From Candidatus Alcyoniella australis (GTDB lineage: Bacteria > Lernaellota > Lernaellaia > JAVCCG01 > Alcyoniellaceae): a stretch of 6,481 nucleotides of DNA. The stretch covers positions 1 to 6,481 of the forward strand of contig JAVCCG010000089.1 of NCBI GenBank assembly GCA_030765605.1. The letters are read 5' to 3'. Numbering within the stretch: position 1 is the first letter of the stretch; each line of letters begins with the position of its first letter. This document shows, piece after piece, positions 302 to 6,481 of the stretch. Below the pieces are notes generated by a model. That model was not told where the DNA came from. It made no database searches and saw only the letters and a list, made by a program, of their open reading frames with translations. The translations under genes and the position numbers were made by a program.

Positions 302-1891
302 ATGCCGACCCTGATAATCGAGGAACGCGGCAGGGGCCAGCGCTCCAAGACAATTGGCGATTCCGCCGTGCTCGGCTGCGGATTGGATTGCGAGGTCGTG
401 CTGCAAGGCGAGACCGATCGCCTGGCCCAGATCGAAATGATCGAGGGCAAGTGGCGAGTGCGCAGCCTCTCCGACTCGATCTCGCTGTTCGTCAACGGTC
501 GGCCGGTCAAGCAATCGGCCCTCAACGACGGCGACGAGCTCAACATGGGAAAAAGCCGAGTGACCTTCCACTTGGCACAAGACAAGCTGCCCGAGGGGCT
601 GTGGGACAGCTTCTCCACCGGGTTCTCCCTTAACGACGCCGAGGCGCGCAGTCTGCTCGGCGCGGTCTCCTCCCCCGAAGAGCGGCGCAGGATCAACCCG
701 GATCACGAGGGATACCTTAAAATCGCATACGAGATCAGCAGCCTGCGCGCCCAGTCGCGCTCGTTGCGCGAGTTGGCCGTCGGACTGCTCGAGGTGGTGT
801 TCCGGCTGACGCCGGCCGAACTGTGCTGCATCATGCTCAGCCAGAATCCGACATCGGTCGATCAGCTTATCTGCACCGATCGCCAGGGCCGCGATTGTGA
901 GATGCCGATCAAGAACGAGGTGATCGAGCACGTGGTCGGCCAGGGCACATCGTTCTCTTGCCGCAACGTGCACGACCGCACGGGCCAATGCGCACAGCTC
1001 GAGTTCGAAGATCGCGACATCTGCAGCCTGATGGCCGTGCCGCTGCGCGGTCCCAACGGAATCCTCGGCGCAATCAAGATCCTCACCCAGGGCCGCGATC
1101 TGTTCGGCCGCTCGGACGACCTGCAGCTGATGACGATCATCGGCAACGAGGCCGGGCTGGCGATTCACAACCAACTGACAATGCAGGTGCGGATCGAAAA
1201 CCAACGCCTGGCGGCCATCGGCCGCGCCCTGAACTCGCTGACCGATTATCTGCGCGACGTGTTCCAGGGGATCGACGGCGCATCGTTCGGCATCGAGAGC
1301 GGCATCGAGTCCAAGGACATCCCCGCGATCCGCACGGCCTGGGAACGGCTGCAGGCCAACCACCAGCGCCTGCGGGCGCTGGTCCAGACCATGCTGCACG
1401 CAACCGAGCAACGTCCGTTGCGGCGCCATCGCCAATCGATCAAGCCGCCGATCGACCAAGTATGCGAAATGCTCAGCTCCAAGGCCCTGACCAAGGGCTG
1501 CATCATCGAAAGCACGATCTCGGAAAACCTGCCCTGGGTCTTGGTGGACGAGGATGCGATACGCTCCGCGCTGTTCGCCCTGATCGACAACGCGGTGGAC
1601 GCCGTACCCGACGCCAACGGACGCGTGCGCATTGACGCCCGCGCCACGCGCGACCGCCACATGTTCGTCGAGATCACCGATAACGGACCGGGAATGGACC
1701 TCGACCAGTTGCCCCAGGTTTTCGAGGCCTTCTACACCACCAAGGCCGAGGAAGGCACGGGTATTGGGCTGTTCAACGCGCGCAAGATCATCCGCGAGCA
1801 CAACGGCCAGATCAGCGTGCGCAGCCAGCCGCAGATGGGCACCACGTTCACCATCGACCTGCCGGTACCCAAGCACAAAGAAAAAGAGTAG
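302..1891 (+). CDS. FHA-GAF sensor histidine-kinase-like protein lacking the phosphoacceptor His
   Basis: 529 residues with no signal peptide or membrane span, so cytoplasmic. Domains in order: FHA-like fold about 5-95, a linker, GAF about 150-295, a dimerisation helix pair about 300-370, and a HATPase_c domain about 375-525. The ATP-binding boxes are all present: N box with Asn430 and Asp433, G1 box DNGPG at 460-464, F box FEAF at 474-477, G2 box GTGIGL at 486-491. In the dimerisation helix the family pattern SLxHxIKNxLQGI is replaced by SLTDYLRDVFQGI (312-324), so Asp315 stands where the phosphorylated His should be and Asp319 where Asn is usual. The FHA domain also lacks its usual Arg, Ser-x-x-His and Asn-Gly-Thr binding residues. 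The GAF part holds Cys175, 176, 191, 199, 220, 230 and 241. The start has GGGAG ten bases upstream. The likely partner is the NtrC-type regulator at 3480. The protein may act as an ATP-binding scaffold or pseudokinase rather than an active phosphodonor. Confidence 0.88.
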   Translation: MPTLIIEERGRGQRSKTIGDSAVLGCGLDCEVVLQGETDRLAQIEMIEGKWRVRSLSDSISLFVNGRPVKQSALNDGDELNMGKSRVTFHLAQDKLPEGLWDSFSTGFSLNDAEARSLLGAVSSPEERRRINPDHEGYLKIAYEISSLRAQSRSLRELAVGLLEVVFRLTPAELCCIMLSQNPTSVDQLICTDRQGRDCEMPIKNEVIEHVVGQGTSFSCRNVHDRTGQCAQLEFEDRDICSLMAVPLRGPNGILGAIKILTQGRDLFGRSDDLQLMTIIGNEAGLAIHNQLTMQVRIENQRLAAIGRALNSLTDYLRDVFQGIDGASFGIESGIESKDIPAIRTAWERLQANHQRLRALVQTMLHATEQRPLRRHRQSIKPPIDQVCEMLSSKALTKGCIIESTISENLPWVLVDEDAIRSALFALIDNAVDAVPDANGRVRIDARATRDRHMFVEITDNGPGMDLDQLPQVFEAFYTTKAEEGTGIGLFNARKIIREHNGQISVRSQPQMGTTFTIDLPVPKHKEKE

Positions 1892-1896
1892 GCGCC

Positions 1897-3258
1897 TTAG
1901 AGCTTCTTCTGCATCACTCTCGCCGCCATCAGGATCGGATCGATCACTGCTGAGAACGGCGGCGCATAGGCGAAGTCGACCTCGTTGAGCTGATCCACGG
2001 TCATTCCGGCATACAGCGCCACGGCCAAAGAATTGATGCGGTGCGCCACGCCCTCGGTGCCGGCCATCTGAGCGCCGAGTAGCCGCCGCGACCCGCGGTC
2101 GGCGATCAACATCACGTTGATCGGAACTCCCTTGGGCTGGGCGTGGGCCCGCGAGCGATGCTTGACCAACTGGGTGCAGGCGTCGAACTGCTGCTGCGCC
2201 TCGCGCAGGGTCAGCCCGGTGTATCCGACCTGCAGGTCGAAACATTTGAAGTGCATCGATTGCAGCACACCGGCGAAACGCGCATCGCCGCCCGCCGCGT
2301 TTTCGCCCGCGGTCCAACCCTGCTTGTTGGCCACATCGCCCAAAGGCGCGTACACCGGCTCGTTGCTGATTCGCTGCAGCGACTGGCAGCAGTCGCCCGC
2401 AGCGTAGATCCCATCCACCGAGGTCTGCTGCCGCTCGTCCACGGCAATGGCGCCGCTGGGTCCGATCTCGCAGCCCGCCGCACACGCCAATTCCACAGCC
2501 GGCTCCACGCCCAGGGCGGTAAGCACCATCTGGGTCTCGAACTCGCCGCAGTCGGTTTGCACGGCGCATACCAATCCCTGATCGTCGAGCAACATTTGCT
2601 GCACCTTGCAGTCGGGCACGTAGCGCACGCCGTTGGCCTGCAGCGTCTGGATGATCAGCTCCGCGATCGGCTGCTCGGCGCGTCCGCCGGGCTTGCTGCT
2701 GCGATGCAGGATCGTCACTTCGAGGCCGCGCGCGCTCAGCGCCTCGGCCATCTCCAGGGCGATGAATCCCGCGCCGACGATCGCCACACGCTTGGGGGTG
2801 CGCTGCCGGATGAAATCGTCGATAGCCCGTGCTTGGTCGAGAAACTTGAGGCTGAAGACATTGGCCGCGTCCGCGCCCGGAGCATCGAGGGTCCGCGGCC
2901 GCGCGCCCGTGGCCAGGATCAGCCGGTCGTACTGGTGCGTCTGCTCCGCGCCGGTCTCCAGGTCGCGCACGGTCACGCTGCGCGCCTGCGGATCGACGGC
3001 CGACGCCTCGTGCCGCAGACGAATACGGATGTTTTGACGGCCCTCGAACTCCTCGGGCGAGCGCACCAGCAGACGCTCCCAGGTCGGCACCTCGCCGCTG
3101 ATGAAGTACGGCTCGTCGCACGCGCCGTACGACACGTAGCGATCGCGTTCGAACAGCGTGATCTCCATTTGTGGATCAATCCGCCGCGCGCGGCTGGCCG
3201 CACTGGTGCCGCCGGCCACTCCACCGATCACGATCAACCGCTTGCCCTGATTCGACAT
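1897..3258 (-). CDS. CoA-disulfide reductase-like FAD/NAD(P)H pyridine nucleotide-disulfide oxidoreductase
   Basis: 453 residues from the ATG at 3258. This start is preferred over the in-frame GTG at 3267 (456 residues), because that GTG lies inside the ribosome site. Residue numbers here follow the longer form; subtract 3 for the chosen start. Visible features: an FAD-binding glycine loop GGVAGG (15-20), ATGARP (119-124), an NAD(P)H-binding loop GAGFIALE (165-172), the second FAD motif AAGD (289-292) and a C-terminal YAPPFS (434-439). The motif SYGACDEPY places a single redox Cys50 as in the CoA-disulfide reductase/NADH oxidase group, which uses one Cys with a bound thiol rather than a CxxxxC pair. 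The length is close to S. aureus CoA-disulfide reductase (438). The expected role is NAD(P)H-dependent reduction of CoA disulfide, persulfide or a related thiol in the cytoplasm; the real substrate is not shown. Asp51 replaces the usual Gly. There is no rhodanese extension. It converges on the kinase gene, with stops five bases apart. Confidence 0.87.
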   Translation of the reverse strand: MSNQGKRLIVIGGVAGGTSAASRARRIDPQMEITLFERDRYVSYGACDEPYFISGEVPTWERLLVRSPEEFEGRQNIRIRLRHEASAVDPQARSVTVRDLETGAEQTHQYDRLILATGARPRTLDAPGADAANVFSLKFLDQARAIDDFIRQRTPKRVAIVGAGFIALEMAEALSARGLEVTILHRSSKPGGRAEQPIAELIIQTLQANGVRYVPDCKVQQMLLDDQGLVCAVQTDCGEFETQMVLTALGVEPAVELACAAGCEIGPSGAIAVDERQQTSVDGIYAAGDCCQSLQRISNEPVYAPLGDVANKQGWTAGENAAGGDARFAGVLQSMHFKCFDLQVGYTGLTLREAQQQFDACTQLVKHRSRAHAQPKGVPINVMLIADRGSRRLLGAQMAGTEGVAHRINSLAVALYAGMTVDQLNEVDFAYAPPFSAVIDPILMAARVMQKKL

Positions 3259-3263
3259 CCGAC

Positions 3264-3272
3264 TCACCTCCC
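3264..3272 (-). promoter_or_regulatory. Ribosome binding site that decides the disulfide reductase start
   Basis: The minus strand reads GGGAGGTGA from 3272 to 3264. The core GGAGG (3271-3267) is eight bases before the ATG at 3258, which is ideal spacing. The alternative GTG start (3267-3265) overlaps this element and would have no ribosome site of its own. Confidence 0.8.
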
Positions 3273-3479: not shown

Positions 3480-4840
<1,361 letters not shown>

Positions 4841-4847
<7 letters not shown>

Positions 4848-4945: not shown

Positions 4946-4960
4946 ACCAATCATATTGGT
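4946..4960. repeat. Fourth inverted repeat, overlapping the TusA-family stop codon
   Basis: ACCAAT (4946-4951) and ATTGGT (4955-4960) are perfect inverted copies around CAT. The TGA stop of the minus-strand TusA-family gene (4953-4951) falls inside it, mirroring the stem-loop over the response-regulator stop on the other side of the spacer. Confidence 0.35.
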
Positions 4961-5163
4961 TTAAGGATTAGCTTGTACGCGTCGTCCGCCTGCTGCACCT
5001 GGACTTGGTAGCCGTTGCTGCGGCCCAGGCGCGTGATGTTTTCAACTTGGGTCATCTCGTCGACCAGCACGCTCAGCTCGGACTTGGGATCGTCCTTCAT
5101 CGCCTGGCGCGTTCTAACAACCGGGATCGGGCACGATAGCCCCCTGGCATCGATTTCGATCAT
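4951..5163 (-). CDS. TusA/SirA/YedF-type sulfur carrier protein
   Basis: 70 residues from the ATG at 5163. An in-frame GTG at 5175 would give 74, but it overlaps the GGAG ribosome site (5173-5170) that sits six bases before the ATG. The protein then begins MIEIDARGLSCPIP, the usual family opening, with the CPxP motif at Cys11-Pro14. In TusA this Cys carries a persulfide between sulfurtransferases. The later pattern of acidic residues, an Asn-Ile-x-Arg helix (from NITRLGRS) and a C-terminal strand completes the two-layer fold. It is slightly shorter than E. coli TusA (81) and has no DsrE-like second domain as in longer YedF proteins. It is the last gene of the minus-strand operon, starting 13 bases after the stop of the ribokinase-fold gene. 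A role in sulfur or selenium transfer is a family-based inference; donor and acceptor are unknown. Confidence 0.88.
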   Translation of the reverse strand: MIEIDARGLSCPIPVVRTRQAMKDDPKSELSVLVDEMTQVENITRLGRSNGYQVQVQQADDAYKLILKPI

Positions 5164-5169
5164 TTCATT

Positions 5170-5173
5170 CTCC
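5170..5173 (-). promoter_or_regulatory. Ribosome binding site that decides the TusA-family start
   Basis: GGAG on the minus strand (5173-5170) lies six bases before the ATG at 5163, just after the TAA of the upstream gene (5179-5177). The GTG at 5175-5173 shares a base with this site and so is an unlikely start. Confidence 0.65.
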
Positions 5174-5176
5174 ACA

Positions 5177-6058
5177 TTAAACGGTGCATACGCCCGACCA
5201 GGCGCAGAGGTTTTCGTTGAGTACTTCAGGCAGGCTTTGGATCAGCTTGACGATGCTGGAGTCGACCTGCATTGCAGCGTGGCTGCCTGCCGCGCGGTTG
5301 GCTTTGGCCGCGATGATCGCCGCCTCGTGCGGCTCGAGCCCGGCGTACAGCAGCGCCGCCAGCAGGCCGGTGATCGTATCGCCGGTGCCGCCGACCGCCT
5401 CCATCTGCGGGACGTTGGGCGAGTCGATACGCGCCTGGATCACCCCGGCGCGAGCCACCAGATCCTCGGCCCCCTTAATCAGGGTCAGTTGCGGGGCGTT
5501 CCCCTCTTTGTAGGCCCGGGCGATCTGCTTGGCCGGATCAGCCGCACAATCGTAGATCAGATGCTCGGCAATGTAGGCCGGATGGTCGGCCCGCGGGTCG
5601 GCCAGAAACGCCAACTCCGCACGGTCGGGCGTAAACACGTCGAAACGGCGCGCCAGCCCCGCAGCCTTGGCCGCGTACATCGCCCCGGCGTCGGCCAGCA
5701 GCAGCGGACGCTGCTTGCAGCGCTCGATTTGCGCCTCGAGCTGCTTGATCAGCGTGACGATCGGCAGCATGTAGTGCAGGCAGAGCACTTGCGGCGCGAT
5801 GTGCCGTATGTGTTGCGAGAGGTAACGGTAGAGCGCGCGGCTGCCCTTGCCCTGGCCGATATCGCCCGCCAACAGCGCGTGGGGCGGGTCGATTCCCAAA
5901 TGCTGAGTTACAGCGCAGGCCGCACTGATCATCGCCGCGGTCCCCTGTCCGCAGGGAATTCGCAGGTCGCCCACCACCAGCGTTCCGTTGTCCAGCACCG
6001 CAGGGCCCAAGATCGGCTCGGAGCGCTCGTGAGGGATCGTTCCGCAGACCAGCAACAT
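5177..6058 (-). CDS. Ribokinase-fold protein, NAD(P)H-hydrate dehydratase (NnrD/YjeF C-domain)-like
   Basis: 293 residues, near the size of stand-alone NnrD enzymes (B. subtilis YxkO, 276). The C-terminal signature GGTGDTITGLLAAL (223-236) with Asp227 matches the family's catalytic loop. LADAG (121-125), FTPDRAEL (142-149) and LIKGAED (193-199) fall where NnrD has its DA, TPHPGE and KG motifs. The family removes water from damaged NAD(P)H hydrates at the cost of ADP or ATP, in the cytoplasm. The usual His-Pro-Gly of TPHPGE is Asp-Arg-Ala here and the N-terminal part is divergent, so another small substrate is possible. There is no N-terminal epimerase (YjeF_N) domain. GGGGAGG (6071-6065), inside the previous gene, is six bases before the ATG, and that gene's TGA is one base from the ATG, so translation is probably coupled. 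The TusA-family gene follows after 13 bases. Confidence 0.72.
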   Translation of the reverse strand: MLLVCGTIPHERSEPILGPAVLDNGTLVVGDLRIPCGQGTAAMISAACAVTQHLGIDPPHALLAGDIGQGKGSRALYRYLSQHIRHIAPQVLCLHYMLPIVTLIKQLEAQIERCKQRPLLLADAGAMYAAKAAGLARRFDVFTPDRAELAFLADPRADHPAYIAEHLIYDCAADPAKQIARAYKEGNAPQLTLIKGAEDLVARAGVIQARIDSPNVPQMEAVGGTGDTITGLLAALLYAGLEPHEAAIIAAKANRAAGSHAAMQVDSSIVKLIQSLPEVLNENLCAWSGVCTV

Positions 6059-6059
6059 C

Positions 6060-6481
6060 TCAGGCCTCCCCGGCCAGCTCGCGCGCGTGCTGGAAAGCGC
6101 GGTCGAGCATCAGCGCACACAGCGTGTGCCCCAGCTCTCGGGGCGGCTGCGCCGTGTGCAGATCTTGGCCAACGAGCATCGCGTAGAGGTACGGCACGTC
6201 CGGGCAGCCGCCGCCGGAGATGTTTACGATCCGCCCGCTGACGCTGTCAAAGGTCAGCTTCATGTTCGCCGCCCTGACCATCACGCAGTCGCCGAAGCGT
6301 TCGTGCTGAACCAATTGCAGGGGCTGCGGCGCATTGTCCTGGATCAGCTCGATGCCGATGAATTCGACCCGCGTTCGCTCGAGCTCGCGCCGGATCGACA
6401 ACTGCTCCACCGCGTTGAACTCCAGCGCCAGGTCGCAGCCCTCGCGTTTGGACACCGGCGGCGCGACCAGACGCACGTCCT
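6060..6481 (-). CDS. Unrecognised Cys-containing protein, 5' end beyond the window
   Basis: The frame is open from the window edge to a TGA at 6062-6060, giving about 140 residues so far. A GTG at 6476 is an internal candidate start, but the only AGGA near it is one base away, so the true start probably lies outside. I do not recognise the family. Counting from the GTG, Cys occurs at 14, 64, 91 and 120, and the most striking motif is ISGGGCPDVPYL (86-97), a glycine turn with Cys-Pro-Asp that looks like a conserved active or binding site. A second candidate motif is GHTLC (116-120) in a helix ending the protein. No signal peptide or membrane segment is seen. It is the first gene of the operon visible here, one base from the NnrD-like gene, and shares the operon with a TusA-type sulfur carrier, so a link to sulfur handling is possible but unproven. 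Confidence 0.75.
   Translation of the reverse strand, partial: DVRLVAPPVSKREGCDLALEFNAVEQLSIRRELERTRVEFIGIELIQDNAPQPLQLVQHERFGDCVMVRAANMKLTFDSVSGRIVNISGGGCPDVPYLYAMLVGQDLHTAQPPRELGHTLCALMLDRAFQHARELAGEA

Follow-up and report, generated by a model that had tools for sequence, protein, structure and literature searches.

The protein encoded at positions 302 to 1,891 of the window (the whole contig G000:C89, 6,481 bases, from a genome that is 98% complete and has few sequenced relatives) is predicted to be an unusual orphan member of the known pseudo-histidine kinase class. Asp stands both at the phosphoacceptor His site of its DHp domain (Asp315) and at the Asn site four residues downstream (Asp319), where 118 of 118 aligned relatives carry His and Asn, respectively. 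Kinase, phosphatase and FHA ligand residues have been lost together, with the ATP site largely preserved, in a family that otherwise possesses His and Asn without exception in our sample. Pseudo-histidine kinases are a recognised class, but HisKA domains without His are rare, at 0.9% (PMC12632262), and studied examples are few. The explanation that we favour, with somewhat better than even confidence, is that the product is a folded, ATP-gated pseudo-histidine kinase that acts through a bound partner, as DivL does. If so, it would offer a clean case in which to ask what role nucleotide binding plays in a kinase that does not phosphorylate.

The protein shows the full-length FHA, GAF, DHp and HATPase homology that defines the FHA-GAF-HK family (Table 1), with GAF and HATPase_c above their Pfam cut-offs (93 bits for PF02518), and an FHA match (PF00498) that scores 19.7 bits against a whole-protein cut-off of 20.7 bits, yet exceeds the cut-off, at 23.2 bits, in the genome search. 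Its reading frame is open for 529 codons, with GC contents of 0.63, 0.42 and 0.85 at the three codon positions, like those of its neighbours. Because the adjacent oxidoreductase and NtrC-type regulator have same-class relatives (59% and 51% identical, respectively), sequence comparison supports the assignment of the contig to the named lineage.

Table 1 Features of the predicted pseudo-histidine kinase gene and its neighbours in the window
Feature	Position	Strand	Basis or remark
Predicted pseudo-histidine kinase gene, FHA-GAF-DHp-HATPase_c, 529 aa	302..1891	+	ORF list, Pfam
Degenerate FHA domain, aa 3-92 (R26C, D36G, R39D, H41L, D55S, S58D, N60I, G61S)	308..577	+	Family alignment; beta strands in model
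GAF domain, about aa 135-292	704..1177	+	Pfam GAF_2/GAF; model
Long helix, aa 271-336, including DHp helix 1	1112..1309	+	Model
Asp315 (GAT) at phosphoacceptor His position	1244..1246	+	His in 118/118 relatives
Tyr316, position +1 (classical HisKA: Glu/Asp; FHA-GAF-HK family: mostly His, Ser or Tyr)	1247..1249	+	Alignment
Asp319 at +4 Asn position needed for phosphatase activity	1256..1258	+	Asn in 118/118 relatives; PMC3510030
DHp helix 2, aa 340-368, with conserved W347, M364, L365	1319..1405	+	Alignment, model
HATPase_c / CA domain, aa 376-521	1427..1864	+	PF02518 1.9e-26; model; Foldseek
Ala426 at first N-box Asn position	1577..1579	+	Asn in 118/118 relatives
Asn430, second N-box Asn, retained	1589..1591	+	Alignment
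G1 box DNGPG, retained	1679..1693	+	Alignment
G2 box GTGIGL, retained	1754..1771	+	Alignment
CoA-disulfide-reductase-like gene	1897-3267	-	Convergent with 302-1891
NtrC-type sigma-54 response regulator, candidate partner	3480..4847	+	Receiver Thr replaced by Gly81, codon 3720-3722

A sequence-only reading of this DNA had placed Asp at the phosphoacceptor site and again at the downstream Asn, and both assignments hold in the family alignment. Relatives were gathered by whole-genome searches and by scanning GTDB contigs for a pattern in the ATP lid, and an initial alignment of 89 (His315 and Asn319 in 89/89 each) was extended by a further 29. As the retrieval pattern, which supplied 80 of the aligned relatives, sits in the ATP lid and outside the DHp domain, the count of His is free of selection bias. 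An independent HMMER alignment to ZraS (PDB 9jfj) likewise sets D315 on the His of AHEIRNPL. Tyr316 is shared with 14 relatives, and position 318 is still basic. The protein therefore lacks both the DHp helix 1 His of an active HisKA histidine kinase (D315) and the Thr or Asn, four residues beyond it, of the E/DxxT/N motif of HisKA phosphatases (D319).

The same reading had treated the loss as selective and the ATP boxes as intact, which is correct only in part. Scored over those columns of the 118-relative alignment whose conservation reaches 95% or more, the protein agrees with the family at 19 of 24 within the ATP-binding domain and 4 of 7 in DHp, but at only 3 of 8 in GAF and 2 of 10 in FHA. 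The ATP cassette is indeed mostly spared, whereas two domains have lost ligand and catalytic residues; the loss is not restricted to the His site, the FHA domain, where 8 of the 10 columns differ, being just as degenerate. Nearly all of the FHA signature (the GR, SRxH and NG ligand residues of phosphothreonine-binding FHA domains) has disappeared through R26C, R39D, H41L, N60I and G61S. These five positions belong to the phosphothreonine-binding loops, and the domain has consequently probably ceased to bind phosphopeptides as well. Within the ATP domain, N430, D460, G462, G464, F477, K481 and GTGIGL are retained, so that the N, G1, F and G2 boxes of a HATPase_c domain are recognisable, with the exception of N426, which is Asn in every aligned relative and Ala here; G482 is also Ala. 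Sequencing error as the source of Asp315 is ruled out by the many coordinated changes.

An AlphaFold2 model of the protein (pLDDT 85, a confidence that derives in part from the 50 relatives in its input alignment) has a well-defined all-beta FHA region, GAF domain, pair of DHp helices and CA domain, with D315 lying within DHp helix 1. Foldseek matches to the model include HisKA kinases, among them the pseudo-kinase DivL (4q20). By sequence and model, then, this is a folded histidine kinase homolog lacking at least one catalytic function, as pseudo-histidine kinases are defined, and the pseudokinase proposal of the sequence-only reading is well supported, at the level of sequence, by H315D, N319D and the lack of an alternative His in the column. 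Evolution has evidently been fast, given that no branch of the tree is longer than that of the protein (3.73; median 0.33) and that its best same-class relative is 31% identical (59% for the neighbouring oxidoreductase). A scan of GTDB contigs that used only this protein as query yielded no close ortholog, a search of 7 genomes of the phylum gave nothing closer than 31%, and no Asp-carrying ortholog was found in either set. The long branch also fits relaxed constraint; the fast evolution may reflect either this or a new function.

Under the favoured explanation, the protein would be incapable of autophosphorylation, of phosphotransfer and of dephosphorylating a regulator. It would still dimerise via its DHp helices and probably bind Mg-ATP through its CA domain (N426A could weaken this binding), and its GAF domain and nucleotide state would set a DHp/CA conformation to be read by a bound partner, either a receiver domain or another kinase, as in DivL. 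Signalling is thus probably by shape and docking, not by phosphate transfer, since residues for phosphorylation, phosphatase action and FHA binding are gone and most of the ATP pocket is kept. Experimental work on the HisKA kinase CrdS provides a guide: H371A abolishes kinase activity and keeps most phosphatase activity, N375A is without phosphatase activity, and in N375D kinase activity is not measurable and phosphatase activity is insignificant (PMC3510030). By analogy, neither activity would be expected here, because N375D is the substitution that matches N319D.

DivL of Caulobacter is a transmitter that senses a phosphorylated regulator by binding it (PMC4211667), and it resembles the present protein in its histidine kinase architecture and in the replacement of its phosphoacceptor (by Tyr550); the likeness in mode of action is an analogy. 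However, DivL has PAS sensors and Tyr, and its H, N, G1, F and G2 boxes are described as retained, whereas this protein has FHA and GAF domains and Asp, and has lost the +4 residue and N426 as well. ZraS and AtoS-type HisKA kinases (9jfj; NF008468, NF007688) share its DHp-CA fold and sequence, but are active membrane kinases with His, and the protein falls far below their NCBIfam cut-offs. Its closest kin are the FHA-GAF-HK proteins, with which it shares full-length homology, domain order, the RLAAIG, W347 and ML motifs and the ATP boxes, and from which it differs in that all of those aligned have His, Asn319 and N426, and a nearly complete FHA signature. This family, for which our literature search found no dedicated study, is near-universal and single copy in 116 of 119 planctomycete-related genomes around G141 (a genome that the tree places with the planctomycetes), and it is this ubiquity, together with strict conservation of His, that makes the contrast sharp.

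Several alternative hypotheses may explain these features. The gene may have lost its function and be drifting in decay without yet being interrupted, which would account for the length of its branch, for deviations from the family in every domain and for an identity to relatives far below that of the oxidoreductase. Yet 529 codons have stayed free of stops and frameshifts despite about 70% divergence, third-position GC matches that of the neighbours, and ATP-box residues and structural Gly, Trp and Leu have been retained far more often than ligand residues, and we consequently regard decay as unlikely. Less likely again is a heterodimer in which the protein would be the regulatory partner of a catalytically active kinase from another locus. 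DHp heterodimers usually require close paralogs, and since no second, intact family member was found in its own 98% complete genome, this possibility loses ground, even though the DHp helices and CA domain are intact in the model and a pseudokinase effect acting via another histidine kinase is documented for ChrS/HrrS (PMC9491836).

The remaining alternatives retain some chemistry. A phosphatase-like role, raised in the sequence-only reading and here disfavoured, would make the protein a phosphatase-only regulator of a response regulator; HisKA phosphatase activity is not strictly dependent on His (PMC12632262), as CrdS H371A illustrates, but the required +4 Asn is Asp in this protein, and the failure of CrdS N375D and N375A at the matching position renders such a role very improbable. 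The largely intact ATP cassette might instead phosphorylate Asp315 itself, or Ser/Thr of a substrate, in the manner of an acyl-phosphate or GHKL protein kinase. GHKL Ser kinases have a catalytic Glu at N-box -4, where this protein has the non-acidic A426, and our literature search found no paper on Asp at the His site of histidine kinases; we give this idea still less weight. Finally, His354 and His366 lie within DHp helix 2 and had been named as possible substitutes, but the family alignment and ZraS fix column 315, no other His of the protein reaches it, both candidates align elsewhere, and relatives lack His at 354 and 366, so that use of a different phosphoacceptor His appears remote in the extreme.

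The NtrC-type regulator encoded on this contig is a candidate partner for the predicted pseudo-histidine kinase. Its receiver still has the Asp pair, phosphoacceptor Asp53 and Lys, but the position that is Thr or Ser in 13 of 13 relatives is Gly81 (VIVIGSF). A switch without phosphoryl chemistry on either side, in which an ATP-gated pseudo-kinase (H315D, N319D) binds this Gly81 regulator, can be imagined, but we think it doubtful. As a conserved partner of the family the regulator was rejected, being within reach at only 2 of 88 family loci, and any receiver was detected nearby at only 8 of 88; the family is consequently mostly orphan, and the pairing should be read as a hypothesis only. In two same-class relatives (L022:3208-3948 and L023:7220-7955), a single-domain receiver and a HEAT-repeat-like gene converge on the intact kinase of the family, possibly forming a cognate module; the best match to that receiver in the genome studied here is only 36% identical and lies within a 735-aa frame.

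The same genome encodes a second kinase-like protein without the His (L135:523-1950, on G000:C69), which has ILPQLRQYL in place of IAHEIRNPL and has also lost its N-box Asn (LSLLGHCMDA). Elsewhere in the window, genes for TusA, an NAD(P)H-hydrate-dehydratase-like kinase and a weak Se/S-carrier-like protein stand in a row on the reverse strand (4954-6476), and together with the CoA-disulfide-reductase-like gene they look like a set for sulfur or selenium trafficking.
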